35,795 nucleotides of DNA from Candidatus Gastranaerophilales bacterium (GTDB lineage Bacteria > Cyanobacteriota > Vampirovibrionia > Gastranaerophilales > Gastranaerophilaceae), in the NCBI GenBank assembly GCA_947630535.1, contig CANRHZ010000018.1, forward strand, positions 1 to 35,795. The letters run 5' to 3'. Within the stretch, counting starts at the first letter, position 1. The number at the start of each line of letters is the position of its first letter. The position numbers and the translations under genes are program-made. Shown in pieces: positions 7 through 34,714 of this stretch. The notes beneath the pieces were generated by a model, which was given only the letters and a program-made list of their open reading frames with translations, did not search any database and was not told where the DNA came from.

Positions 7-948
7 AAGGGATTAGGCGGATTTACTTTAGCTGAAGTATTGATAACACTAACGATAATAGGTATCGTTGCAGCGATTACGTTGCCTTCATTATTAGTTA
101 ATGTCAATGACAAAGCTTGGAATGCTCAGCGTAAGGCACTATATGCAAGAATGAGCCAAGCAATAGGGGAGATGGATAGTGTTGCAGGGTACGGGACAAA
201 TGACGGTGAGATAACGGATATGACCGATACAACTTTAAAATCAAGTGCAGCTGAATCGTTCATTATAGATGGGTTATCAAAAGTTTATAGAATACAAAAT
301 GTATGCAATAAAAATAACCTCACGGCATGCGGACTACCTGATGAAATATTAACAATGCAAGGAAATGCCGTAAAATTTCCAAAGACGCTCTTTACAATGT
401 ATAATTATAATTATATCCAAGTTCCAAATACTGATGTTGCAGCATTTGAAACGGTAAACGGAGAATCTATAGCAGTTTATTATAACCCTTTTTGCGAATC
501 CGATGTCAATACCACTGACCGATACACGGGAAGATATGCATGTGCCAATATGGTATACGATTTAAACGGATTAAAAGGGCCTAATGAAACAGGTAAAGAT
601 ATTGGGTTTATGACTGTTTTTTACAGGACAAACAGTGTTGTTGTGGCACCTAATCCATTCCCGAGTGATGCTTCAACATCAAAATTTTCATCATACAGTG
701 ATGATGGAAATGATGCCGCTTCAGCTTGTATTAAACAGGGCGATAACGCAAGAATTCCCGATAAAGACGAGCTTGCATCAATGTTTTTAAATAAATTAAT
801 TACAGGGCCATATTCTGAATTTTATTGGTCAGGCTCCGTTATTTCCCCCGGGGAAACAGGAGAAACATGGCATGTAAATTTTGCCGTCGGACACAGGTAT
901 ATGAGGCCTCGCTCGGAAGCATACTCGGTCAGATGCGTAAAAAGGTAA
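1..948 (+). CDS. Prepilin-like variable surface protein, 5' end cut by window edge
   Basis: Type IV prepilin/pseudopilin-like protein, probably processed by prepilin peptidase and assembled in or displayed from the envelope. The reading frame is open from base 1 and gives PPKGLGG then FTLAEVLITL, a class III leader cut after Gly with Glu at mature +5, followed by one hydrophobic helix. The true ATG lies outside the window; the first in-frame TTG at 40 would lose the leader and is rejected. After the helix comes NVNDKAWNAQRKALYARMSQ, shared by all three family members here. The C-terminal third (ARIPDKDEL ... YWSGS ... VRCVKR) resembles the DUF1566/Lcl C-terminal, C-type-lectin-like fold; that assignment is by eye. 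Even cysteine spacing suggests disulfides. The window begins inside a run of at least six C. A hairpin terminator follows the stop codon. Confidence 0.85.
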   Translation, partial: PPKGLGGFTLAEVLITLTIIGIVAAITLPSLLVNVNDKAWNAQRKALYARMSQAIGEMDSVAGYGTNDGEITDMTDTTLKSSAAESFIIDGLSKVYRIQNVCNKNNLTACGLPDEILTMQGNAVKFPKTLFTMYNYNYIQVPNTDVAAFETVNGESIAVYYNPFCESDVNTTDRYTGRYACANMVYDLNGLKGPNETGKDIGFMTVFYRTNSVVVAPNPFPSDASTSKFSSYSDDGNDAASACIKQGDNARIPDKDELASMFLNKLITGPYSEFYWSGSVISPGETGETWHVNFAVGHRYMRPRSEAYSVRCVKR

Positions 949-1098: not shown

Positions 1099-3420
1099 TT
1101 ACATTACCATCTCAAGGCTCATATCGTAAGGGGAAGATTTTACCATTAATTTTTTCCCTGCGGTTTTTACAATATAGAGCGAATCGGTTTCATTCTCCTG
1201 AGCAAGCTGAGATTCAATATCCGTTTCTTTAACATCCATATCCCCGAAATTATACAAAACGAAAATATCATCTTGAATATACCCTACAAGAGATGTTTCA
1301 CCCTCGAATTTTGCAAGGTATAAGCCCCTTGTTTCGGTTAATTTTGAAGAAGAAACAATGGTTGCAACATCATCATTTTGCTCCAAAGTTTCATCAAGAG
1401 GAGCATTTGATGAGGAGTTTTGAGCATTTTCGTATGATGCGACATAAATGCTTTCGGAATTATAGTAGTTTTGAGGTTGAATAGGAGTATAAAGCTCTTT
1501 AATGACAACATCATCAGGAGTTTTTTCGTTAATTTCAACTTCATTTTCGTTAGATATTGAATCTGAAATGCTATCCATATAGGCATTAAACGCTTGAACT
1601 TTTTGCGCTTCTTCGGGTGTAAGTTCAGGAATTTTTTCAACAACCTGAGGAGTGATTGGCTCTTCTTCTTCCATAGGAACAGAAGGATTGTCAGAAACAG
1701 GGTTTGAAACAGTTTGCGTTTGAGCAAGATTTTCTTCAAGACCGGCTTCAATTTCATCCGATTTATCTTTTGCCTTTTTATTGAAGTAAGCTTTAATATC
1801 CGTATTTTGACCCATCAGGTTGCCTTCCGATAAAACTTGTTCTGCAAGCTTTTTAGCACCCGCACGTTTTGTAACGACGTAGAGAGAAAGCAAAACTATA
1901 AACGAACCTAACAGGTAAATAACGCTTGAATTTCCGCCTGTAGCAGGCTTTGTTTCTTCTTGTTGTTTGGTATCTTCCTGTTTTTTATTTATTGTATCCG
2001 CATTATTTTCATCAACCATAGTCGAAGTTGTTCCAAATTCTACTTCAACGGGCTTATCGGTTACAAGTTCTTTTTCATATTTTTTTGCTTCCTGTTTTTG
2101 CTTTTCACGGTTTGACAAACTTTCGGATTTTACGGGGGAATTTTTCTCACTTTTAGCTATTATATTTTCATTTTGTACTTCTTTTGACTCAAATGTTTTA
2201 GTTTCAACAACTTTAGGCTCTATAGCTTGTTTTTGTTCTTTCTGTTTTATGGTTAGTGCCTGTTTTTGAGGTTGAACTTCTTTTATTTCTTTAGGTTGAG
2301 TTTTTATACCGTTTGTTGTTACGGTTTTATTTTGTTGAAAAGGTTTTGAAGCTAAAAGGGGTTTAGATTGCTCTATATGCCTTATTTGCTTAGCAGGTTG
2401 CACCTTTTGAACGGGTTTTGTAGTTACAGTCGGCTTTTGTGCTATGACGGGTTTAGTTTGTTGAACGGGTTTTGTGACCGCTACAGGTTTTGATGCTACA
2501 ACGGGTTTTGCAGTTACTGTGGGTTTTTGTGCCATGACAGGTTTTTGTGTTGCAGCGGGTTTTGATGCGACAAGCGGTTTAGTTTGTTTGGCCTGTTTTG
2601 TCACATTTGGTTGAACGGTTTTAGAAGTCGTTTTTACACTTTGATTTTGATTTTTATTTAGAGAAGGTGTAACTTTTATTTGTGACTTTGATTTTGTATC
2701 GGATGAAGCAATGACATTAGTTTTAGCCTTTGGCTGCGTCGTTGTTTTAGTCTGCTTTTTAGCTTGTGCCTGTGCCTGATTTTGTTTATTTGTATATTCT
2801 TCAAAAGATTTTGTATTTGTTATAGGGGTTTTTGGTTTTTGCGCTATAACTTCTTGTTTTTTCTGTACTGTAGGTTTAGCCTGATTTTTCGTATTTGAAG
2901 CAATTGCGGTTTGTTTTCTGAATTGTGCAAGAGGAGTTGGGATATCATTATCCGCAAGCCTTTGAGCATATCTTTCAAACGCATTATCAAGTCTTGCAAG
3001 CCTTAAAGGGTCAAGACGGGGTGAAATTGAAGTATCAAGTGTTTTTAGAGAGGTTGATAAATTTACGGGTCTATCCGTTATAATTGCAACCTTTGTATAC
3101 CCGTTTTGCAAGTCTTGCCCCGCATAAGGGTACGATTTAACAAGTATGTTTTTAATTGCGCCTTTTGGGGGCACAGAGGTTATTGAATGGTTGGTTTCAG
3201 GCAAAAGAAAATAATAAATCGTATCCGATTTTTTAATTATTTTAACGGGTTCATTGTATATTTTTTTTGTATAAAGCTCGATATCATAGCTATTATCGCT
3301 AAGCTCATTTACCTCAAGCTTTAAAAGACTGTTTTTATAATCACTGTCTGCCGCATTCAGGCTTTGTGTTCCGAATAAAAACACAAAAAATGCGAGAAAT
3401 ACCGCAAAGAATTTATTCAT
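1099..3420 (-). CDS. Secreted/membrane protein with Lys-Pro-Gln-Thr-rich repeats
   Basis: Function not recognised. The start chosen is the ATG at 3420, which begins a good signal peptide (MNKFFAVFLAFFVFLFG, mature end near NAADSD) and has GAGG upstream; an in-frame TTG at 3450 is less likely. Roughly residues 30-140 look like a beta-rich envelope domain that might be AMIN-like (low confidence). Residues about 160-470 are low-complexity and rich in K, P, Q, T and V, with many irregular copies of a six-to-eight residue unit centred on a KP pair (such as VASKPV or VAQKPT). A hydrophobic helix (VIYLLGSFIVLLSLYVV) follows near residue 500, then an acidic linker and a small C-terminal domain of about 75 residues. 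The Pro/Lys region would suit spanning or binding peptidoglycan, but that is inference. It is divergent from era across a 60-base gap. Confidence 0.8.
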   Translation of the reverse strand: MNKFFAVFLAFFVFLFGTQSLNAADSDYKNSLLKLEVNELSDNSYDIELYTKKIYNEPVKIIKKSDTIYYFLLPETNHSITSVPPKGAIKNILVKSYPYAGQDLQNGYTKVAIITDRPVNLSTSLKTLDTSISPRLDPLRLARLDNAFERYAQRLADNDIPTPLAQFRKQTAIASNTKNQAKPTVQKKQEVIAQKPKTPITNTKSFEEYTNKQNQAQAQAKKQTKTTTQPKAKTNVIASSDTKSKSQIKVTPSLNKNQNQSVKTTSKTVQPNVTKQAKQTKPLVASKPAATQKPVMAQKPTVTAKPVVASKPVAVTKPVQQTKPVIAQKPTVTTKPVQKVQPAKQIRHIEQSKPLLASKPFQQNKTVTTNGIKTQPKEIKEVQPQKQALTIKQKEQKQAIEPKVVETKTFESKEVQNENIIAKSEKNSPVKSESLSNREKQKQEAKKYEKELVTDKPVEVEFGTTSTMVDENNADTINKKQEDTKQQEETKPATGGNSSVIYLLGSFIVLLSLYVVTKRAGAKKLAEQVLSEGNLMGQNTDIKAYFNKKAKDKSDEIEAGLEENLAQTQTVSNPVSDNPSVPMEEEEPITPQVVEKIPELTPEEAQKVQAFNAYMDSISDSISNENEVEINEKTPDDVVIKELYTPIQPQNYYNSESIYVASYENAQNSSSNAPLDETLEQNDDVATIVSSSKLTETRGLYLAKFEGETSLVGYIQDDIFVLYNFGDMDVKETDIESQLAQENETDSLYIVKTAGKKLMVKSSPYDMSLEMVM

Positions 3421-3468
3421 CCTTAAAATTACCTCTTTTTTATTCCCCAAAAAATTTGGATTTCATAG

Positions 3469-8129: not shown

Positions 8130-8165
8130 TTAAGGAAGCCTATTTTTTAGCTTCCTTAATTTTTG
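8129..8165 (+). terminator. Terminator of pheA
   Basis: An 11-bp perfect stem ATTAAGGAAGC/GCTTCCTTAAT (8129-8139 and 8150-8160) with a 10-base loop, followed by TTTTGTT. It starts inside the pheA stop codon and lies against the end of the convergent gene. Confidence 0.85.
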
Positions 8166-10535
8166 TTATTTTTTCCAATTTATTAAAACGTAACCGTTTT
8201 GTCCGTCGCCGCCTTTTCCCGCTCCGTATTTAGCGCTCCATCCGCCGCCGCCGCCGCCTGAGCCTGCTTGACCGAAGGTTCCTGTTCCTTGTGAAATTTG
8301 AGGAGGAATAAATTTGGCGCTTGCACCGTCTGATGTATTAACGGAACAACCTGAATAAAATTCATCTATGTTATATATTTTGATTGTACCGTTTGTATTT
8401 ATGGTAATCGTATTTTGTAGTCTGGAATCTTGTAAAATATTTGTGCCGTCTGAAGAATATAATCCGTCTTTGTTTCCGACAAAAAGTCCTCCGCAGCCTC
8501 CCTTGGAGCCAAGCCCCGAAAAGCCGCCAAGACCGCCTGCGTACGCTAAAGAATTACCTATAGGGTATCTGAAATGTAAGCCGTTATAAACTCTTTGCCC
8601 GTTTATATTGAATCCGTTATAATTGGTATTTGCGGGAACAACCGATATATTACCAAAAATTATGTTATTATTAATGCTATAATCTGAATGACCGCCTGTT
8701 TTATCGAATGTTGATACGTTTGATTTATTGACTTTGGCGCCCGTTTTTACACCGTTATTTCCCGAATTTAATTCAAAGAGTGGTGCATTATTATTTGTCA
8801 TGTATGAGTAAACGAGTCGTCTTGTATTTATACTGTTGTTTGGGGCCGTAGTATTGACATTAGTATTTACTCTGGTTGAAATTGTCTCATCAAAATTGAA
8901 AGAAGTATCGGGGTCTAAAGAGCTTAAAATAACAGGTGTATACCTTGATGATTGAGGCGGATTAGGATATGGAAGGTATGAAGATGCATTATTTGTTGGA
9001 ATACTTGAAGTTGCAGCAGTATTAATTCTTCCGCCGTTACCGCCCACACCGCCTGCAACAAGCAAAATGAGATTGCCGTTTGAATCATATATTGCGCTTG
9101 AAGAACCGCTTAGACCCTCGCCGCCTGTTGTCGGAGTTTTTATATATGAACCGTTTGAATTTATAGTGCCTGATGTGCCGCTATTCCCGCCTTTTCCTCC
9201 GGAGCCTACCGATATTACATATCTTTCACCGGGGATTACGGGAAAATCGGTAACTCTAACGGCAGAACCGCCCGCACCGCCCGAGCCAACTCCTCCCGGG
9301 TTTTCAATTGAAACGGTAGTTTTACCCCCCGCATTTAATTTAAAGGTTTCACCGAGAGATTTAATTCTTATGGAACCTTGGTTCGAACCTGAATCAATTG
9401 CATAGGAAGTGCTTAGCGTACATGTTGTGTTACTATTAGTACAGAGTATATATGAACTGTACCCTCTGCCGCCTGAACCATATTCTCCTTCAATTTGAAG
9501 ATGTTTTCCGCCTTCCTTACCATAGGCAAGGTAGCCTGTACTTATTTGTTTTGAATTTAAGCTGACTGCACTTTGGCCATTTTGTGAGGTTTCTATATTG
9601 GCTATTGGAAGATGGCAATTATTTATTAAGGCATTATTATTGCCTGTGGTTGAATATGTTGCTTGAGTTGAACTTTTATTTTTTGAATTATATAGAAGGC
9701 AAGTTAAATTATTACTTGGGGTTGATGTTGATGCCCCGTCAGCCGTAAAATAGATGGTATAATCGTTAACACTGTCAGGAAATGTTTTTAAAAGCTGAAG
9801 CCCAAGCCCGTTATATGTTGTAAGCGATAGAGAATTAGATGATTTAACCGAATCAAGCCCGCTTTTTCCTATATAGCTTATATTAAGCCTTGAAGCACCT
9901 TCGTTTAAAATGGATGGAACATAATCTTGTGTATGAATCAGGTCGTCTGAAATATTAAAATCAATTATGGCTACACCCGATTTACCTCCGCTTCCTGAAG
10001 GATAAGTGGCAGTTGAAGTGGGAAAGGTTGCGCCTTTTTGCCCTGAGCCTGTTAAATAGTTAATTTTTATATTCTTTATTCTCTCAAGTGCAATGTTACT
10101 AAGTGAGGTAAGACTTGAAAAATTATTACTTTCAGCTGATCTGCCATCTGTTTTTTGAGCCACTTCTTTTTCTAAAACAGTGCTTCCTGCGGCACCTCCG
10201 CCGCCGCCGCCGCCTGCAACAAGAGTTATATCAATTTTATGAACCCCGTCAGGAACAACAAATTCGTATTCTTCGCATTTGCCGTTATCGTTTGTGACAA
10301 TGGTTTGGCTTCCGTTAATTTCTGTAAGATAACAGGGAAAACCGCCATCCTGTACGGCTTTTTGTGAATTAAAATAAAATACCTGAGAAGCTCCCACTTG
10401 TTTATGGCGGTTATTGTCTGCCGCCTTTTTTGTCACAAGGGGTATTGTCATAATTAATATAAGGGAAACTATAAGGACGGATATTAAAACTTCGGCCAGC
10501 GAAAACCCTTTTTTTATACTGTTTTTATATAACAT
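8166..10535 (-). CDS. Giant glycine-rich prepilin-like protein, third in operon
   Basis: A 789-aa prepilin-like protein, the largest of three paralogues in tandem. Leader MLYKNSIKKG is followed by FSLAEVLISVLIVSLI, a class III cleavage site with Glu at +5 and one hydrophobic helix. After about 100 residues comes a run of seven Gly (VAGGGGGGGAAG), then Ser/Thr/Asn-rich sequence broken by Gly blocks such as GGVGSGGAGGSAVRV and SVGSGGKGGNSG. The C-terminus has GGLGGFSGLGSKGGCGG and ends SGGGGGGWSAKYGAG ... NGYVLINWKK. These Gly blocks recur in the same order in all three paralogues and resemble general bacterial glycine-rich surface domains. ATG at 10535 has GGAAAGG six bases upstream, 22 bases after the preceding gene. 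Probable role: pilus-associated or surface adhesin (inference). Confidence 0.85.
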   Translation of the reverse strand: MLYKNSIKKGFSLAEVLISVLIVSLILIMTIPLVTKKAADNNRHKQVGASQVFYFNSQKAVQDGGFPCYLTEINGSQTIVTNDNGKCEEYEFVVPDGVHKIDITLVAGGGGGGGAAGSTVLEKEVAQKTDGRSAESNNFSSLTSLSNIALERIKNIKINYLTGSGQKGATFPTSTATYPSGSGGKSGVAIIDFNISDDLIHTQDYVPSILNEGASRLNISYIGKSGLDSVKSSNSLSLTTYNGLGLQLLKTFPDSVNDYTIYFTADGASTSTPSNNLTCLLYNSKNKSSTQATYSTTGNNNALINNCHLPIANIETSQNGQSAVSLNSKQISTGYLAYGKEGGKHLQIEGEYGSGGRGYSSYILCTNSNTTCTLSTSYAIDSGSNQGSIRIKSLGETFKLNAGGKTTVSIENPGGVGSGGAGGSAVRVTDFPVIPGERYVISVGSGGKGGNSGTSGTINSNGSYIKTPTTGGEGLSGSSSAIYDSNGNLILLVAGGVGGNGGRINTAATSSIPTNNASSYLPYPNPPQSSRYTPVILSSLDPDTSFNFDETISTRVNTNVNTTAPNNSINTRRLVYSYMTNNNAPLFELNSGNNGVKTGAKVNKSNVSTFDKTGGHSDYSINNNIIFGNISVVPANTNYNGFNINGQRVYNGLHFRYPIGNSLAYAGGLGGFSGLGSKGGCGGLFVGNKDGLYSSDGTNILQDSRLQNTITINTNGTIKIYNIDEFYSGCSVNTSDGASAKFIPPQISQGTGTFGQAGSGGGGGGWSAKYGAGKGGDGQNGYVLINWKK

Positions 10536-10557
10536 TTTTTACCTTTCCGTCGTCTTA

Positions 10558-12531
10558 TTATATTTTCCATTGAATCATAACGTATCCGTTCTGGCCGTCA
10601 CCGCCGTTTCCTGCACCGTCTTTAAGACTATATCCGCCGCCGCCGCCGCCTGAGCCTGCTTGGCCCAAAGATGAGGTCTTTGGATTGGGCACAACAAATG
10701 TCGCACTTTGACCGTTCGGGTTATCTATAGTACAGTTATCGTAATAATCAGAAACTCTGTACAATTTTGAATTGATTATAAATTTATTCTTTAACGAATC
10801 GGAACTTGATGAGCCGCTATTAAACAAGCCTTTGAGATTTCCCATAAAATATCCGCCGCAACCTGCCTTTGTTCCAAGCCCCGAAAAGCCGCCAAGACCG
10901 CCAACGTATGCTGATAAGTTTTGATCAATTAAAGTTTTATAGTAAAAACCGTCATAAGCATTATTTAAAGTTGTATCATCATCAATTGTTGCATTTTGAT
11001 AGCCTGTATTGGTACCATTATCAAAACCGTTAAATCCCCCCAATTTGTTATCCGTTGTTCTATTTTTACCATTAATAAAAGTCGTAAACGGTTCATTCGA
11101 AATAAAACTGTATGCTATCCTTCTTGCCTGTGTCTGTGCATTTTGCAAAGTAGGTGTGGCATTTGTGTCTGATACAATATCTGTTTTGTTGTCATCAAAA
11201 AATTTGCCGTTAAGAAAATTACTGTCGCCTGAAGTTAGTGTAGGAAAATATCTTGAATTATCGGTTACAACTCCGTTTAAATAAGGAGTGTTGGTAGAAG
11301 TGTTGCCAGCAGTTCCGCCTTGTCCGCCAATTCCGCCGTTTACCATATAAATAAGGTTATCACCATCATATATAGCACTTGATACACCACCCGCACCTCC
11401 GATACCGCCTGAGGGGCTTGAAGATGATATACCGCCTTTTCCGCCTCTGCCGCCTTTACCTACAACAATTCTATATGTATGTCCGCTTATAACGGGAAAA
11501 CCCGTTATTCTTATCGCACTTCCGCCCGCACCGCCAAAGCCTGCACGCCCTGGGGTTTCTTGTATAACGGTAGCACTAACAAATGCGCTGCCGCCTGTGA
11601 TAGAATTATTTGCAGAAGTTCTGGTTGAAGCACTATAATTGCAAGTGGTACCACTAGTACAAGTATATTTTACGGATGCTCCCATACCGCCTGAACCATA
11701 GCTACCCATTACTCCGTCGGTTTTTCCGCCTGCACCGCCCGCTAGAACCATATTACTATAAACTTTTCCGCTTTCAATAGCCTTTGCACCATCCTTACCT
11801 TCTTTTGAAGGGAAGTAGTTTTTCCCTTCGGTAAGACGACAGGCATCTACGGTTGAACCGCCCGTGCAGGATAGAGCATAGGTGCTTGAGATAGCTATTC
11901 CGTAGAGTTGTGTTAATGATGATGTATTATTACCCTGACCAATTTTAAGAGAAGCATCCGTGCTATTTGCAAGTACATAGCCCGAAGTAGCTGCTGCACT
12001 AAGAGCGTTAGTATATGCCGTACCCCTTAATAAATCAAAAGGAATATCAAAGTCAACTATTGCAGGAGAAGATTTTCCGCCTTTTTGTGGCTGGGGAGTT
12101 GCCGAAGTTGATGTAAATTTGGTACCGTCAGTTCCTTTTGCCGTTAAGAGGTTAATTTTTACCTTTTTTAATAAGTCAAGGTTAATTTGAGTTGAACTTG
12201 CCGCTTGCACAAATTGGCGTCCGCCGCCTGCACCGCCGCCGCCGCCGCCTCCTGCAACAAGAGTAATATTAACTTTATTAACACCCCTTGGGACCGTGAA
12301 GTTGTATTGTGAACAATCACGACTTGAAGTGTTGGTGCCGTTGCTTACAAAAAAACAAAGGTTATTTGTTTGAACTCTGTTACTGTCGTTATATGTAAAT
12401 ACAACACCGTCATTTTGTTTGCCGACTGTTTTATTTGTTACAATAGGTGCAAGCACAATCAGGGCAACCGATAAAATTAATACGGTTATCATAACTTCTA
12501 TTAATGAAAAAGCCGATTTATTTTTTAGCAT
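10558..12531 (-). CDS. Giant glycine-rich prepilin-like protein, second in operon
   Basis: A 657-aa paralogue of its neighbours. The start chosen is the ATG at 12531: it overlaps the upstream stop as TAATG and has GGAG six bases before it; an in-frame ATG at 12543 lacks a comparable site. The leader is MLKNKSA then FSLIEVMITVLILSVAL, so the residue before the cut is Ala, not the usual Gly; Glu +5 is present. Layout matches the family: CSQYNFTVPRGVNKVNITLVAGGGGGGG near residues 75-100, GGAGGSAIRITGFPVISGHTYRI in the middle, GGLGGFSGLGTKAGCGG, and the C-terminal AGSGGGGGGYSLKDG ... NGYVMIQWKI. Translational coupling to the first gene suggests fixed stoichiometry. Function is inferred only as a pilin-like surface protein. 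Confidence 0.85.
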   Translation of the reverse strand: MLKNKSAFSLIEVMITVLILSVALIVLAPIVTNKTVGKQNDGVVFTYNDSNRVQTNNLCFFVSNGTNTSSRDCSQYNFTVPRGVNKVNITLVAGGGGGGGAGGGRQFVQAASSTQINLDLLKKVKINLLTAKGTDGTKFTSTSATPQPQKGGKSSPAIVDFDIPFDLLRGTAYTNALSAAATSGYVLANSTDASLKIGQGNNTSSLTQLYGIAISSTYALSCTGGSTVDACRLTEGKNYFPSKEGKDGAKAIESGKVYSNMVLAGGAGGKTDGVMGSYGSGGMGASVKYTCTSGTTCNYSASTRTSANNSITGGSAFVSATVIQETPGRAGFGGAGGSAIRITGFPVISGHTYRIVVGKGGRGGKGGISSSSPSGGIGGAGGVSSAIYDGDNLIYMVNGGIGGQGGTAGNTSTNTPYLNGVVTDNSRYFPTLTSGDSNFLNGKFFDDNKTDIVSDTNATPTLQNAQTQARRIAYSFISNEPFTTFINGKNRTTDNKLGGFNGFDNGTNTGYQNATIDDDTTLNNAYDGFYYKTLIDQNLSAYVGGLGGFSGLGTKAGCGGYFMGNLKGLFNSGSSSSDSLKNKFIINSKLYRVSDYYDNCTIDNPNGQSATFVVPNPKTSSLGQAGSGGGGGGYSLKDGAGNGGDGQNGYVMIQWKI

Positions 12532-14519
12532 TATCGTCTCCATTCAATCATAACGTATCCGTCCTGACCGTTTCCGCCTGAACCGGAACCGTATAAGATA
12601 TTATATCCGCCGCCGCCGCCGCCTGAGCCTGCTTGCGGTTCAATATTTGTACCTATGGCAGGTATTACAAGTTTTGGACTGTGTCCGTTCGGTGTATTGT
12701 TAGAACAACCTTCGTAATAATCAGTAACGTTGTATGGAACATTATTAATTTTGAATTTATTTATCATGGGAAGTTCTATTTCTGTATTACTCGGAGTGTT
12801 TACTGTCGTTCTTCCGTCAAAATTTCCCATAAAGTATCCGCCGCAGCCCCCTTTAGAACCAAGCCCCGAAAAGCCGCCAAGACCGCCCACATACGAAGGG
12901 AAATTGTTAACAAGCGTTCTATTATAAAAACCGGTTGGAATTGTATAGTCGGCAATATCAAAATAATCAAATCCGCCTGTTCTGTTATCAACAGTGTTGT
13001 TACCGTTCATATTTAATGTTCTATAGGGTTCATTATTAAAAAATGTATAGTTTAAGGCTCTGGCATGGACGCTTTGGCCATTCATCGTTATTGTTGAATC
13101 ATCTCCCAAGGTTAATTTTTCTCTGTCGTATGGGATAGAATTCCCAAATACTTCAGTTAAGTAAATTACTTTTGGGATATTTCTTCCGGATTTGCCTTTA
13201 GCGGTTGTTGCGGCACCCTGACCGCCTGCGCCCCCTGTTACCATATAAACAAGGTTGTTTTCATCATCATATATTGCGCTTGAAACCCCGCTATCACCGT
13301 TTGTGCCGGCCCCAATTGCATGGGCGGACGGTGCCCCTGAATTTCCGCCTTTACCGCCTTTTCCTACATAAATTGTATAAGTATGGCCCGCTTTAACATT
13401 CATTGCAATTATTTTAATTGCAGCCCCGCCGGCACCGCCACCCCCTACATGGGGAGTAGTTACCGTAGTATAAGTAACATCCGCTATACCATTTGTGCCT
13501 GCTTTAGGTGCGGAATATTCTATATATGTACCGTTAGATGCTGCACAAGAGAGGTTATTTTTACTTGAATCATTACATTTTATAAGTTGTAAATCCCCGC
13601 CGCTTCCGCCGTTACCATACACACCGTAAGGAAGTTTGCCGCCTTCACCCCCTTTTATAACAGAACTTATGGGAAGAATTGAAGTTGAAGCCACTGCGCT
13701 TGCGGTTTGTCCTTGAATTGAATTTATAAAGTTTTTATCCTGCAATCTACAGTTATCAATAAAATTATTGATATTAGTACCTAAGGTGTATTGGTTTGTA
13801 CCGATTGTACATGAAACAGTGTATGCACTGCTTGTATTTTGTATGGAATATTTTATGTTGTCTCCTATTGAAATAGAAGGATTTTGGCCGCCTAATATTG
13901 TGATTTTTCCGTCTTTGCTTTCGGAATTTTGTTGAAAAATCGGATTTATGTAGTTATATTTAATATATTCGACAGGAAGCAAAAAGTCGTATATAAGCGG
14001 GGAAGAATTTCCGCCGTTGCCTGCGACTCTTGTTGTTGTATTAACCGCACTTCCTTTTTTTCCTTGCGCCGATAGCAGATTTATTTTAATTGATTTTAGC
14101 ATATCAAGGTTAAACGTTTCGGTTGTTTGAGTTGAAGTTGTATTTGAAATTCTTCGCTCAATATACCTTTCGCCTCCGGCACCGCCTCCGCCGCCGCCTC
14201 CTGCAACAAGAGTAATATTAACTCTATTAACTCCGTTTGGAACGGTAAATGTATATTGTGAACATTCTTTGGTAGGATTGAATGTTTCAGCGTAGTTACT
14301 GTAATTAATATCGGTAAGATAACATCTGTTATCGTTGTTTGTGATGTTATCTGCTTTGTATGTATAAATGACCCCTTCTAATTTGGGCGGAAAAATGCTT
14401 TTTGTTAAAATAGGCGCCATTGCAATCATTAAAAGAGATACAATCAAAATAGACATTAAAACTTCAACCAGAGAAAACCCCAAGTAAGCTTTATTACTTT
14501 TATTATTTATTTCTTTCAT
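12531..14519 (-). CDS. Giant glycine-rich prepilin-like protein, first in operon
   Basis: A 662-aa prepilin-like protein that opens the operon. Leader MKEINNKSNKAYLG is followed by FSLVEVLMSILIVSLLMIAM with Glu at +5. CYLTDINYS and CSQYTFTVPNGVNRVNI precede a Gly run (VAGGGGGGGAGGERY). The middle block (GGGGAGGAAIKIIAMNVKAGHTYTIYVGKGGKGGNSG) and C-terminal block (GGLGGFSGLGSKGGCGGYF, then AGSGGGGGGYNILYG ... DGYVMIEWRR) align with both paralogues, while the Ser/Asn/Thr-rich stretches between diverge. Transcription likely starts near 14560 from a good sigma-70-type promoter; GGA sits nine bases before the ATG. The large C-terminal part is far longer than a normal pilin, so it is more likely a minor or tip-type component or a surface adhesin using the pilin route (inference). 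Confidence 0.85.
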   Translation of the reverse strand: MKEINNKSNKAYLGFSLVEVLMSILIVSLLMIAMAPILTKSIFPPKLEGVIYTYKADNITNNDNRCYLTDINYSNYAETFNPTKECSQYTFTVPNGVNRVNITLVAGGGGGGGAGGERYIERRISNTTSTQTTETFNLDMLKSIKINLLSAQGKKGSAVNTTTRVAGNGGNSSPLIYDFLLPVEYIKYNYINPIFQQNSESKDGKITILGGQNPSISIGDNIKYSIQNTSSAYTVSCTIGTNQYTLGTNINNFIDNCRLQDKNFINSIQGQTASAVASTSILPISSVIKGGEGGKLPYGVYGNGGSGGDLQLIKCNDSSKNNLSCAASNGTYIEYSAPKAGTNGIADVTYTTVTTPHVGGGGAGGAAIKIIAMNVKAGHTYTIYVGKGGKGGNSGAPSAHAIGAGTNGDSGVSSAIYDDENNLVYMVTGGAGGQGAATTAKGKSGRNIPKVIYLTEVFGNSIPYDREKLTLGDDSTITMNGQSVHARALNYTFFNNEPYRTLNMNGNNTVDNRTGGFDYFDIADYTIPTGFYNRTLVNNFPSYVGGLGGFSGLGSKGGCGGYFMGNFDGRTTVNTPSNTEIELPMINKFKINNVPYNVTDYYEGCSNNTPNGHSPKLVIPAIGTNIEPQAGSGGGGGGYNILYGSGSGGNGQDGYVMIEWRR

Positions 14520-20878: not shown

Positions 20879-23800
20879 TTATTGCCCTTCATTCAATTGA
20901 AGGTTGAGATATTTATTTACCGTTTTAATAAATGACTGTTGTTCAAAGTATTCTTTTTTAATAAATTCCTGAATTCCGAGCCTTAAAAACTCCTCTTTTA
21001 GCCCCGTTTTTTCAATGGATGTTACAACAATAATCGGAATATCTTTTGTGTTCTGATGGGCTTTTAGAATTTTAACAAACTCAATTCCGTTCATATCGCC
21101 CATTTCATAATCGGAAATTATTAAATCGTATTTTTTGGTTTCAAGGAGTTTTAGTGCATCTTTCGGGCTTATTTCAATATCGGGATTATATCCTTGAGAA
21201 GATAAAACATTTTTCATCAATCTTCTTGTTGTAATTGAATCGTCCACAACAAGAATTTTATACTTTGAATTATCTTTAAGCGTGAGGGTTTTTGTTGTAT
21301 TCAATTCGTAAGGGTTAACTTTGTCGTAATTTAAAATATCTGAAATATTTAACAAAAGGCACATTTCGCCGTTTGCAAGAGTTGTAATTCCCGATATATT
21401 TTTAACCCTTAGCATAGGCTCGGGGAGTTTTTTATGAAGAATTTCTTCATCCCCTATTAATTTTTCAATTATGAGCCCTAAAGTGATGCTTTCCGATTTT
21501 AGTACCATTATGGTATATTTATCAATTTCTTCATTTTCATCAATTTTATAATTTAAAATTGATGAAAGCCTGCAAATAGGAATTGCCTCGTTATCGTATA
21601 TAAAATAGTGCCTTCCCTCTCTTTCGTTGATTTCATCGGGGGAAATTCTTAAAACATTATGAATATTCCCCGTAGGTACTGCAAAGAGCTGGTTTTTTTC
21701 TTTTAGAATGAAGGCTTTCATTGTTGCCATTGTGGTTGGCAATTCTAATGTAACGACCGTTCCTTTGTTTTCTTCCGAATATACATCAATTCTTCCGTTC
21801 AACTGTGAGATTTTTGTATGAACAATATCAAGCCCAAGGCCCCTTCCGGATAATTCCGTTACAACTTCACCTGTTGAAAACCCCGGATAGAATATAAAGT
21901 TTGCAAGCTGCTCTTTTGACATATTTTGTGCGGCATCTTTTGTTACAAACCCTTTTTCTATGGCTTTTTGCTTGATTTTTTCTATGTTTATTCCTCTGCC
22001 GTCATCTTTTATGCTTATTAATATTTTATTTTCTTTTTGGGTTGCCTTCAAAATTATGCTCCCCGTTCTTTTTTTGCCAATGCGCTCTCTTTCTTTAGGT
22101 ATTTCAATACCATGGTCAATTGAATTTCTTATAATGTGCATAATGGGGATTTTTATATCTTCAATGATTTTTTTGTCCGCACTGACATCTGCCCCTTCGA
22201 TTGTAAGCTCAATTTCTTTTTCTTTGTCTTTTGAAATATTGTGAACCATCCTCGGAAAAAGGTTAAAAGCGGCGGAAAGAGGCAAAATTCTCATTGATTT
22301 AACCATGTTTTCCATATCCTGGGTGGTCGTGTTTAATTTAATATTGTTTTCCTGCAACTCTTTCATTAAAAAATTCAGATTGTTTAAAATCTCGTTCATT
22401 TTTTCCATATTTGCACTGTGGAATGAAATAAGCTGCTTATTGTATGAAAGAAAAGCGTCTTTTTTTTGGAGAAAATCTACTTCGTTTTTGGTTTCCTGAA
22501 TATATTTTTTTTCATAAAATTTCATATAGTAGCCGATTTTGTGGTAATATTTCTGCAAGTCAATGAGGTTATCCTGCAAAACTTTTACAAGGCTTATGTT
22601 TTCTTGAGATTTTATTCTTGTAACAATTAAGTTACCGATTTGATTAACAAGCTTATCCAGTTTGTCCGAATTTACTCTTAAGGTTTTTATTGAAGTTGTA
22701 TCAAAGCTTTCTGCCCAATCTACGGGTTTTATGGTTCTTTGCGCCCTTTCATATCCTGCGCTCGGGCTTTTTAGTTCATAGTTAATCATTTGTGAAACAA
22801 CAAGCGCCTTTTGATTTAAAAGGTCGATTTCTTCTCCGAAATCAGAATACGTTTTTAAGGCATTAGACTTCGCTTCCGCTATACCCTCACATGAAATCAA
22901 AATTTCTTTTAATGCGCCAAGAGAGTCATCTTCCAGTTTTGAATTACTCTGCTCAAAATTCAAAATAACCGATAAAATTATTTCATATATTTTTTTGAAG
23001 CTATCATCATCAAGTCTTGCTATTATTTCATTTAAAAGGCTTTTTACTTCGGCAAGAGAGTGCTTATTTTTATTAATTTCGCTTATTGTTTCATTTACTT
23101 TATTTACAAGCTCTATAAGTTCTACATTCTTTAATTTTCCTTCATCATTCGGGCTGTCATTTATCTCAAGTCTGCTATCCTGTGTAATCTTATAGGCATT
23201 TTCATAGTAATCTTTAATTTTAATATTGTTCTTTTGCGCAAGAAGGTTAAAGCTTTGTATAAATTCATTAATTTTAACATTAAATTTAAAAAGGGTGTCA
23301 TCATTTCTGTTTTCTTCGTTTACATATTGAGAAGCTAAGTCATTTAATGCAATTGATATGTCAATTAATTCACCGTAGCCGCATTCTTCTATAAGGCTTG
23401 AAAGAGAAGCGGTTATGGAAATTAAATCCTGAAACTGTTCAAAGTTATTGTCAGTTACCGACTTAGAATATATTAAAATTATACTTGTTATATAGTCGCC
23501 GATTTTTTCAAAATTTTTTTCCAAAGCCTGCCTTTTATAAAAGGCCTCGTCGTTTTTGTTTTTTTCATTGCCTTCCTGTTTGCATATAGCATTCAATTTT
23601 TCTATATGAGCTATTGTTTCTTTTGACTTATATTCGCTTTTTTGTTCAATAGTCTTTTTAATTAAAACACCGATAAGCCCGAGAGCGGAAGATATTGTAT
23701 CCGTAATATTTGAATCAACTTTGATTTTTTCTTCTCTTATAAGCCCTAAGACATCTTCAATTTTATGGGCAATATTTTGTATATCGTCAAATCCGAGCAT

Positions 23801-23974
23801 TCTTGCAGAGCCCTTAAGACTGTGGGCATCTCTGAATAAATGCATTGCGATATCGACGCTATTTGGTTTTTTTTCAAGAAGCAAGAGGTTTTTATCCATG
23901 GACTGGAGAATCTCGGTGCTCTCTTGAGAAAATATATTTAAAATTTCATCTAATTCTTCCTGAAGAAATTCCAT
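20879..23974 (-). CDS. cheA: Hybrid CheA histidine kinase with C-terminal receiver
   Basis: A chemosensory histidine kinase of 1031 aa. Domains in order: Hpt at residues 1-120 with phosphoacceptor His51 in AHSLKGSARMLGF; a long helical region (about 150-420); dimerisation helices with KLDKLVNQIGNLIVTRIKSQ; HATPase with HIIRNSIDHGIEIP, DDGRGI and GRGLGLDIVHT; a CheW-like coupling domain from MKAFILKEKNQLFAVPTG; and a receiver (last ~125 residues) with ILVVDDSITTRRLM, ISDYEMGDMNG and a KKEYF-type conserved Lys. The Hpt-kinase-CheW-REC arrangement is the CheA type found in cyanobacterial and type IV pilus chemosensory systems. It follows the MCP gene by 14 bases. No CheR or CheB is present in the window, so adaptation is either elsewhere or absent. 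Confidence 0.95.
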   Translation of the reverse strand: MEFLQEELDEILNIFSQESTEILQSMDKNLLLLEKKPNSVDIAMHLFRDAHSLKGSARMLGFDDIQNIAHKIEDVLGLIREEKIKVDSNITDTISSALGLIGVLIKKTIEQKSEYKSKETIAHIEKLNAICKQEGNEKNKNDEAFYKRQALEKNFEKIGDYITSIILIYSKSVTDNNFEQFQDLISITASLSSLIEECGYGELIDISIALNDLASQYVNEENRNDDTLFKFNVKINEFIQSFNLLAQKNNIKIKDYYENAYKITQDSRLEINDSPNDEGKLKNVELIELVNKVNETISEINKNKHSLAEVKSLLNEIIARLDDDSFKKIYEIILSVILNFEQSNSKLEDDSLGALKEILISCEGIAEAKSNALKTYSDFGEEIDLLNQKALVVSQMINYELKSPSAGYERAQRTIKPVDWAESFDTTSIKTLRVNSDKLDKLVNQIGNLIVTRIKSQENISLVKVLQDNLIDLQKYYHKIGYYMKFYEKKYIQETKNEVDFLQKKDAFLSYNKQLISFHSANMEKMNEILNNLNFLMKELQENNIKLNTTTQDMENMVKSMRILPLSAAFNLFPRMVHNISKDKEKEIELTIEGADVSADKKIIEDIKIPIMHIIRNSIDHGIEIPKERERIGKKRTGSIILKATQKENKILISIKDDGRGINIEKIKQKAIEKGFVTKDAAQNMSKEQLANFIFYPGFSTGEVVTELSGRGLGLDIVHTKISQLNGRIDVYSEENKGTVVTLELPTTMATMKAFILKEKNQLFAVPTGNIHNVLRISPDEINEREGRHYFIYDNEAIPICRLSSILNYKIDENEEIDKYTIMVLKSESITLGLIIEKLIGDEEILHKKLPEPMLRVKNISGITTLANGEMCLLLNISDILNYDKVNPYELNTTKTLTLKDNSKYKILVVDDSITTRRLMKNVLSSQGYNPDIEISPKDALKLLETKKYDLIISDYEMGDMNGIEFVKILKAHQNTKDIPIIVVTSIEKTGLKEEFLRLGIQEFIKKEYFEQQSFIKTVNKYLNLQLNEGQ

Positions 23975-23988
23975 ATTAGATTTTTACT

Positions 23989-25041
23989 CTACTCGCTTAC
24001 TACCGAATTTTTAAACCCTTTATTTATAGAATTGATGTTTTCAAGTTTTTCATATCCGAAATCTACGGTTTTATCCTGTGTTTTAAGATTTATGTTTAAA
24101 TCTTTAACAAAATCATCCGCTTCATCAGCGCCTTTACCTATTTTTCTTGAAATGTAATCAATATCGGTCATGCTTGTTGAAATTTGAGTAATTATTTCAA
24201 TAAGCTTTTCAACATTGCCGCTTATATTGTGTGCAAAATCTATACCGGATTCAATTTCTTTTGTGCCTTCTTCGGTTGCAATAACTGTAGAATTTGTTGT
24301 TTGTTGAATATCCGTAATTAAAGATGTAATTTTGTTTGTTGCCTGTTTCGATTCATCCGCAAGTTTTCTGATTTCACCCGCAACAACGGCAAAACCTTTA
24401 CCGTGTTCACCCGCTCTTGCAGCCTCAACGGCAGCATTCAGCGCAAGGAGATTTGTCTGTTCCGCTATATCTTCAACCGTCCCTATGGTAGATGAAATTG
24501 ATTGAATAAATTCCGACAACTCAAGGATTAATTCGGCTATGGTTTGAATTTTATGCCTTATTGCAAACATTTTATCTATGTTTAATTTAACGGCGGAATA
24601 CTCATCATTTGCCTTATCCAGTGTATCGGATGTCTTTGTTTTTGTTTCCTGAATAATTTTTTCAAGGGTTTCAAGGTTTTCTTTAAGAGCTAAAACATTT
24701 TCTTCCGCATTTTTCAGTTTGCCAAAAGAGTCTTTTATTGTTTCTTTGTGTTCCTTTGTAATATCCTCTAATTCCCTTGTAGTATCGTCAGTTTGGTTTA
24801 GAGAATCAAAAATGATTTTATCAAGTTCTTTTTTATATAGCTTTTTTGTGCTTGAAAAGGCATAATATAAAAGCACCAATAATACCAGCGCAAATGCAAG
24901 AATAGAGAGCAAATCAAGCTCATTTGAGTATTTGCCGAATACCCATGCAAAAAGTATTCCTACAAAAATAATTAAAGTATCCAATGCCTGTTGGATATTG
25001 GATAGTTTATTTACAGTAGTTTTTTTGTACTCTTTTAACAT
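23989..25041 (-). CDS. Methyl-accepting chemotaxis protein without a periplasmic sensor domain
   Basis: A 350-aa chemoreceptor. Two hydrophobic helices (residues about 18-36 and 44-64) are separated by fewer than ten residues, so there is no extracellular ligand-binding domain. A coiled coil leads to the signalling tip, with the highly conserved [20 protein letters not shown] then [21 protein letters not shown] around residues 185-225. It probably senses a membrane or cytoplasmic cue, or another protein. AAAGGTGA lies just before the ATG. It starts the operon with cheA and diverges from the REC-GGDEF gene across 66 bases with overlapping -10 regions. Confidence 0.93.
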
Positions 25042-25044
25042 AAT

Positions 25045-25073
25045 TTCACCTTTTTAAAATAATAATGTATAAT
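25045..25073 (+). promoter_or_regulatory. Probable promoter of the REC-GGDEF operon
   Basis: TTCACC (25045-25050), 17 bases, then TATAAT (25068-25073), giving a leader of about 28 bases. The -35 lies over the ribosome site of the divergent MCP gene, so the two transcription units may influence each other. Confidence 0.5.
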
Positions 25074-25107
25074 GGTTTTGGTATTATTATATTAGATATC
25101 TCGATTA

Positions 25108-26550
25108 ATGGCAAAAAAAGTATTAATAATTGATGATTCAGTTACACAATTGTCCAGCCTGAAAATCTTTTTTAAACGTGAAGGCTTTGAAGTTGACACC
25201 GCAAAAAACGGGGTAGAAGGGTTTATAAAAGTTTATAAAAATACACCCGACGTTATAATTTCTGATGTATTAATGCCGCATCTGGGCGGGTTTCAGCTTT
25301 GCAGACTGCTAAAAAGCAATAAAGAAACTCAAAACATTCCCTTTATAATGTTAACAGTTCTTGACAAAAATTTGGATAAATTTTGGGCAAGCCAATCGGG
25401 AGCGGACATATTTTTAAGAAAAGATTATGAAATGTCGGAAATTGTAAATTCCGCAAAACAAATAATCGAAAAAATGCCCGTTTGTGATTCCGTTAAAGAA
25501 GAATTGGCGGAATATGAAATCGAAGAAGAAGAAATACTTGCCCAGATAAATAAAATTCTTGATGAAGAATTAATGAAAACAACAATTACAAATAAATTCA
25601 GGGAAATTACAAGTTATACAAAAGATGACAAAATAATTGCAGAGAGCATATTTAAAATTTTATCCGCTATAACCGACTACGATATTGCCTGCATTTATTT
25701 TAATTCTCCCGACAGTTCAATCCCAAAAAGAATAATATTCCATGAACAAAAAGTTTTGATTAACGAAGAAATAACAAAAGAAATTTGGCGACAGATGCTT
25801 CCCGATTCAATTAATGACTATACGGAAGAAAAAATTAACTTTGCAAAAGAAAAAAACCTTGAGAGCATAAGTTCAATTGACGATTTCCTCTCCAAAAAAG
25901 AGTTTGATTTTTATTACGAAAATACTCTTATAGGAAAGCTTTCTCTTTACTCAAGAGAAAATCTTCGCTGGAACAAAATGCGCTTTATGCAGACAGTCAA
26001 ATCCGAATTGGATTTATTTTTAAGACTAAGATACCTTTATACAAAAACTTGCTACCTTTCAATAACTGATGAATTAACCCAGCTTTATACAAGACGCCAT
26101 CTAAAATCCGTTCTTGCACAAGAATTTGAACGTGCCAAAAGGTACGGTACCATTGTTACAATTGCTATGGTTGATATTGACGATTTTAAGAAAATAAATG
26201 ACATATACGGACATATGGCGGGTGATTACGTTTTAAAAGAGGTTTCAAAAATATTTATAAAAACTTTAAGAAAAACCGATTTTATATACCGTTACGGCGG
26301 GGAAGAAATATGTATATTAATGCCTGAAACGCTTGTTGAAAAAGCATTTATACCCTTAGAAAGATTAAGAAAAACTATTGAAAACAAGAACTTTCTTTTT
26401 GAAGGAAACAAAATAAATGTAACGGTAAGTATAGGTGCCGCCACCTTCGGAAAAGAGATGAGAGACGCAAACGAGCTCATTGAAAAGGCTGATGCTGCAC
26501 TTTACAAATCAAAACACGGCGGCAAAAATAAAGTAACTATGGATGTTTAA
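25108..26550 (+). CDS. Response regulator diguanylate cyclase (REC-GGDEF)
   Basis: A 480-aa output protein that likely makes cyclic di-GMP when phosphorylated. Receiver at residues 3-120 with IIDDSVTQ, phosphoacceptor Asp in ISDVLMPHLGGF (about residue 52) and conserved Lys in FLRKDYE. A middle region (about 150-300) may be GAF-like. The GGDEF domain (about 320-478) has DELTQLYTRRHL, MVDIDDFKKIND and the active-site YRYGGEEICILMPE; RKTD five residues before GGEE forms the inhibitory I-site, so product inhibition is expected. The CheA-REC encoded divergently is the obvious kinase partner, similar in concept to Wsp-type pathways. Its stop overlaps the next ATG as TAATG. No Shine-Dalgarno sequence is obvious. 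Confidence 0.93.
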   Translation: MAKKVLIIDDSVTQLSSLKIFFKREGFEVDTAKNGVEGFIKVYKNTPDVIISDVLMPHLGGFQLCRLLKSNKETQNIPFIMLTVLDKNLDKFWASQSGADIFLRKDYEMSEIVNSAKQIIEKMPVCDSVKEELAEYEIEEEEILAQINKILDEELMKTTITNKFREITSYTKDDKIIAESIFKILSAITDYDIACIYFNSPDSSIPKRIIFHEQKVLINEEITKEIWRQMLPDSINDYTEEKINFAKEKNLESISSIDDFLSKKEFDFYYENTLIGKLSLYSRENLRWNKMRFMQTVKSELDLFLRLRYLYTKTCYLSITDELTQLYTRRHLKSVLAQEFERAKRYGTIVTIAMVDIDDFKKINDIYGHMAGDYVLKEVSKIFIKTLRKTDFIYRYGGEEICILMPETLVEKAFIPLERLRKTIENKNFLFEGNKINVTVSIGAATFGKEMRDANELIEKADAALYKSKHGGKNKVTMDV

Positions 26551-27554
26551 TGAATAACGCTCTTACAGAATACAAAGAATATAGCTACATATTTTTTTCG
26601 GTAGGGACATTCAACTATGCGTTTAATGCCAGATACGTTCTTGCAATAACGCAGTTAACGGAATTAGAATACCCCGAATCAATGCCTGATTATATTGCGG
26701 GGCTTTTTGAATATAATAATTCAATAATAAAAATAATAGATTTAAGGCATATCCTAAAAATTGAACCCGAAAATTACAGTATAAATTCTAAAATAATTAT
26801 CCTAAAAGCAAAAAATGAAACTTTTGGAGTTATTATAGATGAAATTAAAGACATAAGAAGAATAAATTCCATCTCGTTTAATCCTCCCCCCTATGACAGG
26901 GAGAAATCTTATCTGGAGGCAATTTATACCGACGGTTCTTATTCCGCCACAATCGTAAACATAGAAAACATTGAAGCAAAAATAAACTCTAAAGAAAACG
27001 AGGATATAAAAAGCAATAAATCCGCCTCTTTGTTTCTTCCAAGCGACCTCAATTCAAAAGAAATTCTGCACAGAAGAAAACTTCATTACTTAAAAAAAGC
27101 TAAACAGGGAACTTATGAAATAATAAAAAGCAAAGATGCCTATATAACTTTTCTTTTGGATAAGGATACATGTTGCGTTAAAATTACTCACATTGCGGGC
27201 TTTTACAAACTTATAAACATGAAAATCACAAAAATTCCCTGTACTCCTGATTTTATAGTGGGTGTAGTAAGCATTAAAGGAAGATATATAACCGTTATAG
27301 ACCTTTTAAAATACACCGAAAATAAAAACACCAATATAACAAAAGATACAAACATAATCGTCCTTGAATACGAGGACTATGAAATAGGAATTCTTGCGGA
27401 TTCAATAGGGGAAACCATTGATATAGATGAAACCATATTAAATCAAAAACAGGAAAATTCTTCCTGCCTTACGGAACATGTTATAAACGACAGTATGCAT
27501 CTGTTTTTGGATATTAAAAAATTCTTCGGCGAAGAAAAACTTTACATCAGCTAA
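26550..27554 (+). CDS. Double CheW coupling protein
   Basis: A 334-aa protein of two consecutive CheW-like domains, which link chemoreceptors to CheA. Domain one, residues about 10-150, has YAFNARYVLAITQ, MPDYIAGLFEYNNSIIKIIDLR and FGVIIDEI. Domain two, about 200-332, has VKITHIAGFYKLINM, TPDFIVGVVSIKGRYITVIDLL and YEIGILADSIGETI. These GxxxxxGxxxxVIDL patterns are characteristic. Two CheW domains in one chain is less usual than one and may bridge two array partners. It is coupled by TAATG to the cyclase gene and is presumably made with it. Confidence 0.88.
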   Translation: MNNALTEYKEYSYIFFSVGTFNYAFNARYVLAITQLTELEYPESMPDYIAGLFEYNNSIIKIIDLRHILKIEPENYSINSKIIILKAKNETFGVIIDEIKDIRRINSISFNPPPYDREKSYLEAIYTDGSYSATIVNIENIEAKINSKENEDIKSNKSASLFLPSDLNSKEILHRRKLHYLKKAKQGTYEIIKSKDAYITFLLDKDTCCVKITHIAGFYKLINMKITKIPCTPDFIVGVVSIKGRYITVIDLLKYTENKNTNITKDTNIIVLEYEDYEIGILADSIGETIDIDETILNQKQENSSCLTEHVINDSMHLFLDIKKFFGEEKLYIS

Positions 27555-33735: not shown

Positions 33736-34714
33736 CTATCTTTTTATGCAGCGGACACTTAAATTACCGCTTTGTTCTGTTGTTTGGATTTCTCCGTCTC
33801 TTTCATCAATTACCCATGACATTGTTTTTCCGTTTACGGTAGAAGCCGAACCTGACCAATATCCGAGTTCATCAAGGTTGCCAATAAAGACTTTATTTAC
33901 ATAAAGCGACATAAGTTCATATTTATCGGGTAATCTGGTATCTTCATCCTGCTTTACGCATGCACTTGCTGCATCAAGTGTTCCTGAGTCATTTGAATTT
34001 ATCGGAAATTCAGCTCCGCCGTCTAAATCGGAGGATGCGGGAATGGGGGCTGCAACAACCGAATTTGAATTATAAAAAACGGTCATAAAGCCGACATCTT
34101 TCCCCACTTCATTCGGACCTTTCAGCCCGTTAAGGTCATATACCATATTGGCACACACAAACCATCCGATATAATTTCCGGCATACGGGTTTTCTGAAAT
34201 ACAACCGGGATTATAAAATACGGCAATTGATTCACCGTTAACGGTTTCAAAAGCGGCTGCATCGGGATTATAAAAGTGTATGCCCTCACGGTTATCAGAG
34301 TAAATATCAAAGAAATGTTTCGGAAAATCACGACTTTCTCCGTCCATTGTTATTACTGATGAAGGTATGCCGCAAGCTTGCATATTATTTACATTGCAGA
34401 TGTTTTGAACACGGTATACTTTTGATAAGCCTTCAATAATAAAGGCTTCAGATGCATTTCTTGCAGTTTCGTTTTCATCATCAATATTTAATCCATACCC
34501 TGAAACACTATCCATCTCACCAATTGCTTGGCTCATTCTGGCGTATAATGCTTTTCTTTGAGCATTCCATGCTTTGTCATTGACGTTCACAAGTAAACTT
34601 GGTAAAGTTATAGCTGCAACGATACCAATAATCGTTAGTGTTATCAATACTTCGGCTAAAGTAAATCCAATCAATCCCTTGGGGGGGGGGTAACAACTTT
34701 TTCAAAATAGACAT
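33736..34714 (-). CDS. Prepilin-like variable protein with a frame-breaking poly-C tract
   Basis: A member of the same prepilin family as both window-edge genes. The signals for expression are intact: promoter at 34750-34778, GGGAG eight bases before ATG at 34714. Reading from that ATG gives MSILKKLL then prolines from a ten-C run, which shifts the frame; it would stop at TGA 34577-34579 after 45 residues. With nine C it would read MSILKKLLPPPKGLIG and then FTLAEVLITLTIIG, a good class III leader, into the 300-plus-residue body. The body has NVNDKAWNAQRKALYARMSQ, a variable middle, and the YWSGS ... SVRCIKR end. A TTG at 34674 lies inside the leader and would remove the basic residues. So this copy looks OFF in the assembled sequence; a homopolymer sequencing error is the other reading. 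Confidence 0.8.
34681..34690 (-). repeat. Ten-base poly-C tract inside the prepilin leader (phase-variation candidate)
   Basis: On the - strand ten C follow the eighth codon of the prepilin. Multiples of three put ATG in frame with the pilin; ten does not. Such tracts slip readily during replication. It is the only run of this length in an AT-rich window, where G or C runs are otherwise short. Confidence 0.8.

Follow-up and report, generated by a model that had tools for sequence, protein, structure and literature searches.

Three large glycine-rich prepilins encoded in tandem by a gut Gastranaerophilales bacterium as a candidate ligand-binding device of a type IV pilus

Gastranaerophilales are common gut bacteria of animals, almost all of them uncultured. 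How do they attach to a host, a particle or another microbe? One contig of a 1.85-Mb genome of Candidatus Gastranaerophilales, a gut bacterium related to the cyanobacteria, puts this question in concrete form. Contig 18 (CANRHZ010000018.1), whose 35,795 nucleotides (nt) were analysed as a whole and are called the window here, carries on its minus strand three consecutive genes, A, B and C in reading order, each joining a type IV prepilin leader to an unusually large glycine-rich body. What would a bacterium do with three such proteins made together? We consider it probable that A, B and C are three large minor pilins that work jointly, on a type IV pilus able to retract, as a ligand-binding device of three parts.

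All three proteins begin with a class III prepilin leader (a short basic leader, Gly or Ala before Phe, Glu at position +5 and a hydrophobic helix), with the cleavage contexts YLG/FSLVEV in A, KSA/FSLIEV in B and KKG/FSLAEV in C. The Pfam N_methyl model scored above its cut-off for B when run singly and for A, B and C in a scan of the genome. Aligned end to end with B, A and C were 40–44% identical to it and their glycine blocks were invariant, in the order TLVAGGGGGGGA (near residues 95–105), GGAGG, VGxGGxGG, SSAIYD, GGLGGFSGLGxK(G/A)GCGG and SGGGGGG...GYVxIxW. The Pfam model Gly_rich_2 (PF21722; curated cut-off 24.3 bits) matched A above the cut-off at 27.6 bits and B and C below it at 19.1 and 16.7 bits. 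A whole-genome search with B as query returned only A, B and C. No solved structure was related to B by sequence, and the family profile found only weak leader matches to pilins.

The genes are closely packed (Table 1). B probably starts at the ATG at 12531, for a protein of 657 aa, and this start overlaps the stop codon of A as TAATG behind a GGAG, implying direct translational coupling of A and B. The same TAATG overlap joins B and C in the relative L038; in the window the gap between B and C is 22 nt. A terminator-like inverted repeat, shared with a convergent plus-strand gene, closes the operon. A reading made from the sequence alone had already described three paralogues of these sizes (657 aa for the shortest) with prepilin leaders, a conserved order of glycine blocks and a coupled operon, all of which were borne out. 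It had also given the operon its own promoter; an intergenic region of 387 nt does lie 5' of A, yet promoter-like matches were as numerous as chance would have them (34 found, 34.5 ± 5.8 expected), and that part of the claim found no support. No RNA elements or tRNAs were found in the window.

Table 1. Coordinates of the trio, its parts and the retroelement; positions refer to the window unless a locus is named, and slashes mark the cleavage site
Feature	Position	Strand	Basis
Gene A, operon gene 1; 662-amino-acid (aa) glycine-rich prepilin	12531..14519	-	Open reading frame (ORF); Gly_rich_2 27.6 bits, cut-off 24.3; conserved in genus
A prepilin leader, residues 1-14, MKEINNKSNKAYLG	14478..14519	-	Class III motif G/FSLVEV
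Gene B, 661-aa glycine-rich prepilin (probably 657 aa)	10558..12543	-	ORF; N_methyl 23.7 bits, cut-off 21.2; AlphaFold2 model
TAATG, A stop overlapping likely B start	12529..12533	-	Direct sequence reading
B prepilin leader, residues 1-11 of longer reading	12511..12543	-	Class III motif A/FSLIEV
B predicted pilin-type helix (alpha-1N, residues 12-36), not followed by an ordinary pilin head	12436..12510	-	DSSP on model: helix 14-36, first strand at 44
B predicted TNF-like plus glycine-rich head, residues 43-661	10561..12417	-	ALK/LTK and Bxb1 matches begin at 41-45, stop at 660-661
Gene C, last in operon; 789-aa glycine-rich prepilin	8166..10535	-	ORF; separate clade, 99/97 tree support
C prepilin leader, residues 1-10, MLYKNSIKKG	10506..10535	-	Class III motif G/FSLAEV
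Inverted repeat TTAAGGAAGC...GCTTCCTTAA, terminator-like	8130..8159	.	Between C and convergent plus-strand gene; direct sequence reading
bAvd-like gene	L139:5758-6099		
Template repeat	L139:6264-6400		
Reverse transcriptase	L139:6429-7643		

The nature of the large bodies was approached through an AlphaFold2 model of B (m2845165a0ca6), built from 22 sequences, with a mean predicted local distance difference test score (pLDDT) of 81.8 and a predicted template modelling score of 0.75; the heads of A and C were judged by their identity to B. The model was compared by VIA-align with chains preselected by Foldseek. The tail fibre protein gp24 of cyanophage Pam3 (7ypx) aligned with Z 16.1 and a root-mean-square deviation (rmsd) of 4.9 over 223 of 250 residues, the tail tip of phage Bxb1 (9d93_Qa) with Z 11.8 and rmsd 4.2 over 211 residues, and the ligand-binding domain of ALK/LTK with Z 8.4–9.7, while all remaining chains scored 3.4 or less. 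A 482-aa relative from another genus (L118; pLDDT 70.4, nine sequences) gave the same structural ranking, with Z of 14.1, 12.8 and 10.6 over residues 107–314. The head of B is thus strongly predicted to have the TNF-like plus glycine-rich (TG) fold, in which a TNF-like beta-sandwich runs on into bundled glycine-rich segments, and at 40–44% identity A and C would share it. The 223 aligned residues of B are scattered over positions 19–661, implying that the extra length consists mainly of sequence inserted between segments of the framework; the size of these proteins would then reflect long variable loops within a fold of about 250 residues. The phage S16-type gp38 adhesin (6f45), whose polyglycine lattice sits on a beta-helix domain, was absent from both the Foldseek and the VIA-align lists, which excludes nothing. 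A disordered glycine-rich protein was considered for B and ruled out by high pLDDT over most of the glycine core.

What lies between leader and head is equally unusual. In place of a long alpha-1 followed by an ordinary pilin head, the predicted helix of B stops at residue 36, and from about residue 43 the chain takes up the TNF-like fold, with strands running from residue 44 to the end. Nor did the model contain a separate pilin head, such as the intact pilin moiety on which the module of a modular minor pilin is carried; the trio may work like modular pilins while lying outside their strict definition. The proposal from sequence that these are not simple fibre subunits, which models with no stable fold would have refuted, agrees with the model, in which B folds stably with a high-confidence glycine core and a TNF-like/glycine-rich head instead of a pilin head. 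The predicted identity of the body with the fold of phage tail fibres and of the ALK/LTK ectodomain had escaped that reading, and the distinct surface fibre that it offered as an alternative now seems less likely because of the great bulk of the heads and the lack of an ordinary pilin head.

A fold that aligns best with proteins of phage fibres and tail tips raises the thought that the heads derive from a phage tail-fibre gene and act as decoys or anti-phage receptors. In the same direction, the only Foldseek matches at E < 0.001 were predicted viral structures, several of them annotated as glycine-rich domain or minor tail protein. However, no sequence relative was detected in GenBank phages (tblastn) or in IMG/VR, where 600 stretches fitted a peptide pattern and none was a true relative, and a PHROGs search gave weak tail-fibre and minor tail matches only. 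The fold is also widespread, reaching animals in ALK/LTK, and direct phage origin is not indicated; we regard this explanation as very improbable.

If the trio were a working unit, it might be expected to recur in relatives. The same-genus comparison covered eight other species (genomes), the named ones being Candidatus Gastranaerophilales metagenome-assembled genomes, with loci L033–L039 read as DNA. The family was found in seven of the eight and the full tandem trio in six; in the seventh, L036, the locus is cut by the contig end, and the assembly of the eighth, in 250 contigs, is 85% complete. Scattering and decay of the genes, which the sequence-only reading had set against its own proposal, were not seen in these relatives. 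The ratio of nonsynonymous to synonymous substitution rates (dN/dS) was 0.19–0.33 and the frames were open in the relatives; the trio genes are under purifying selection, and a low-complexity artefact or pseudogenes could be ruled out on the same grounds. Within the proteins, in 30-codon windows between L034 and L035, the proportion of nonsynonymous differences (pN) was mostly about 0.05–0.2 where glycine was richest and 0.3–0.4 in the fastest, glycine-poor windows. The loops between glycine segments therefore evolve faster than the segments, with no sign of positive selection on them in these windows, pN being below its synonymous counterpart (pS).

The trio may also move as a unit. Between L033 (6799–13632) and L034 (6787–13641) its proteins were 52–54% identical with dS 1.2–1.3, versus 95–98% identity and dS 0.15–0.30 for the three left-hand neighbour genes, from which we infer replacement of the whole trio between close relatives; the comparison concerns the left flank only, and the trio dS is rough from saturation. 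Such apparent replacement points to strong selection on what the trio binds. The surroundings differ among relatives: the trio lies beside a ribosomal protein S1-like gene (our label, from the shared neighbour sequence) in the window, L036, L037 and L039, and elsewhere in L033–L035.

Beyond the genus, 244 genomes of the phylum were scanned with a profile (A4) made from relatives in other genera, only five candidates being scored per genome; 44 of the genomes gave matches, all listed as the same genus or the same family. Profile A3 aligned with A4 at a probability of 99.0 over the first 164 columns. Three adjacent A4 matches occurred in 24 genomes of nine genera, counted by hand from table rows. 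Clusters for direct reading were picked for having several matches and so give no measure of trio frequency; among them, L115–L118, L120 and L124 held exactly three large proteins each, by direct reading and by motif (F-x-P ... V-GGGGGG past the helix and a terminal G-(A/Y/V)-V-x-I-x-W), and L119, L123 and L125 held three by eye, of which the strict motif caught two, two and one.

These patterns bear on whether the three proteins act jointly at all. Each might instead be a surface adhesin that acts alone and is partly redundant with the others, displayed on a separate pilus or remaining in the membrane; their adjacency would then reflect gene duplication only. The tree did not resolve A and B into orthologue groups, and within a genome the two genes have the same 3' end over 166 nt in L034 and 159 nt in L035, an end that differs between genomes, as for recent duplicates or, as the sequences point to, gene conversion between the first two paralogues. 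Some lineages of other genera (L040–L045) moreover carry dispersed single copies of about 800 aa. Set against this, C, usually the largest member, forms a distinct and well-supported clade (99/97) and stands third in every full trio, groups of three turn up across the nine genera, and the sizes in several genera are very unequal (404, 359 and 751 aa in L119, for example), unlike those of recent duplicates. Independent action is, in our judgement, unlikely. One of the single-copy proteins, a 799-aa glycine-rich prepilin (L040:8965–11364), has a below-cut-off Lcl_C match inside its body and looks like a case of a loop that has taken up a lectin-like domain.

A pilus tip device presupposes a pilus. 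On C31 the genome encodes a secretin, PilC and a PilB that has an MshEN domain; genes for two PilT-like ATPases lie on C61 and C19. Pfam domains and gene order gave the names PilB, PilC and PilT. A second secretin sits in a Tad-like locus. Prepilin leaders do not separate type IV pili from type II secretion, and at the leader level the trio also matched GspG and ComG families, so that A, B and C might instead be pseudopilins of a type II secretion-like piston whose glycine-rich heads contact secreted substrates or the secretin. But a single PilB–PilC–secretin locus with two PilT-like ATPases fits a retractable pilus, the second secretin belongs to the Tad-like locus, and heads of 600–750 residues far exceed known pseudopilins; we hold a secretion piston to be quite improbable. 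Of the 46 prepilin matches in the genome, most fall in another family, whose members have about 320 aa, and no run of large unlike prepilins other than the trio was found. That makes the trio the strongest candidate in this genome for a tip complex, which is not proof that it is one.

Under the favoured reading of a joint ligand-binding device, prepilin peptidase would cut the three leaders and the helices of A, B and C would enter the filament together. The position at or near the tip, the only place where such bulky heads would fit, is suggested by that bulk and by analogy with ComZ of Thermus and the minor pilins of Streptococcus sanguinis. The PilB/PilC/secretin machine would assemble the filament, and the two PilT-like ATPases could retract it. 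At the distal end of the glycine bundle, variable loops would contact a receptor or polymer in the gut, much as the distal loops of phage fibres are thought to do. A more specific version, in which the TNF-like domains bind A, B and C into one heterotrimer, a phage-fibre-like torch at the pilus tip with three unlike sets of loops that strains exchange as a single cassette, is a tentative idea that we think rather unlikely to hold in full.

Several points weigh against the device. Its tip location, its complex and its ligand are inferred. The predicted helix of B is about 23 residues long, with low confidence at its start; the alpha-1 of a usual type IV pilin has about 50 residues and carries a beta-sheet head. 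Foldseek gave no match for B in the PDB at E < 0.001, ranking the Bxb1 tail tip first and the Pam3 fibre 36th, and although we ascribe these non-significant scores to the large insertions, the fold match depends on a second aligner. The trio is unlinked to the pilus machinery genes, and its neighbourhood varies between relatives. Models of the GspH/I/J/K and PilVWX tip families matched at the N-terminus only, all under the equivalog cut-offs. Finally, Glu5 is present in A, B and C, and GspK-type tip subunits usually have none. In the relatives L123 and L124 the third large prepilin does lack Glu5, like GspK-type tip subunits.

Other features of the window and genome deserve mention. The family of about 320 aa comprises roughly 35–40 genes with near-identical N-termini, three of them in the window (40–948, plus strand; 33736–34674 and 34821–35762, minus strand); the contig ends lie in these repeats, which probably broke the assembly. 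A diversity-generating retroelement (DGR) lies on C30 (L139:5758–7643). Its template matches, at ≥60% identity, the 3' ends of at least 15 distinct, dispersed prepilin genes with Lcl_C-like C-termini, the window gene at 34821–35762 among them. Mismatches were commoner at template A than elsewhere in 15 of 15 targets (pooled Fisher p 1e-14 on the 11 closest, uncorrected for relatedness), and template AAx codons corresponded to a mean of 8.0 different residues, against 3.0 at other codons. An earlier paper mentions DGR targets that carry the related DUF1566 domain, some of them putative pilins (PMC6642488); a single template with this many targets is notable. A chemosensory cluster near the trio (20879–27554) encodes a CheA with a receiver domain, a chemoreceptor-like protein, a receiver-GGDEF protein and a double CheW, and possibly controls the pilus; a CheA-like neighbour also stands near the trio in L037 and L039. 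A 783-aa protein rich in lysine, threonine and glutamine (1099–3450, minus strand) had no Pfam match.

Large minor pilins with binding modules are already known, as is the glycine-rich fold in phages and animals; no report of glycine-rich pilins, or of pilins with a TG head, was found in the open-access papers searched. If the favoured reading is true, the trio names a pilus binding organ for Gastranaerophilales and extends the phage-fibre/ALK fold to bacterial pili, and its three proteins could be expressed and screened for ligands. ComZ of Thermus is a large minor pilin at the type IV pilus tip (PMC6561018), and PilA–PilC of S. sanguinis are minor pilins at the pilus tip, of which PilB and PilC are large and modular (PMC9934059). 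ComZ and these PilB and PilC resemble the trio in being unusually large prepilins with a binding module. They differ in keeping the pilin framework and adding a beta-solenoid or lectin module, where the trio is predicted to have the whole head replaced by a TNF-like/glycine-rich fold, and in not being three such proteins made together. The ALK/LTK TG domain shares the TNF-like plus glycine-rich fold; it belongs, however, to the ectodomain of an animal receptor kinase with a cytokine ligand and has no pilin leader. The Gly_rich_2 model spans 226 positions, to which the trio proteins add several hundred residues of insertions. The closest structural likeness is to Pam3 gp24 (7ypx, 7yfw), which, like the trio heads, has a conserved glycine stem and a variable distal tip. 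Its helix docks to the phage baseplate, whereas that of the trio is pilin-type; it has 250–280 residues against 660–790; and its fibre is a homotrimer of one gene, in contrast to three paralogues here. Should the trio prove to be a heterotrimer, a retractable bacterial pilus would be using the receptor-recognition architecture of a phage tail fibre.
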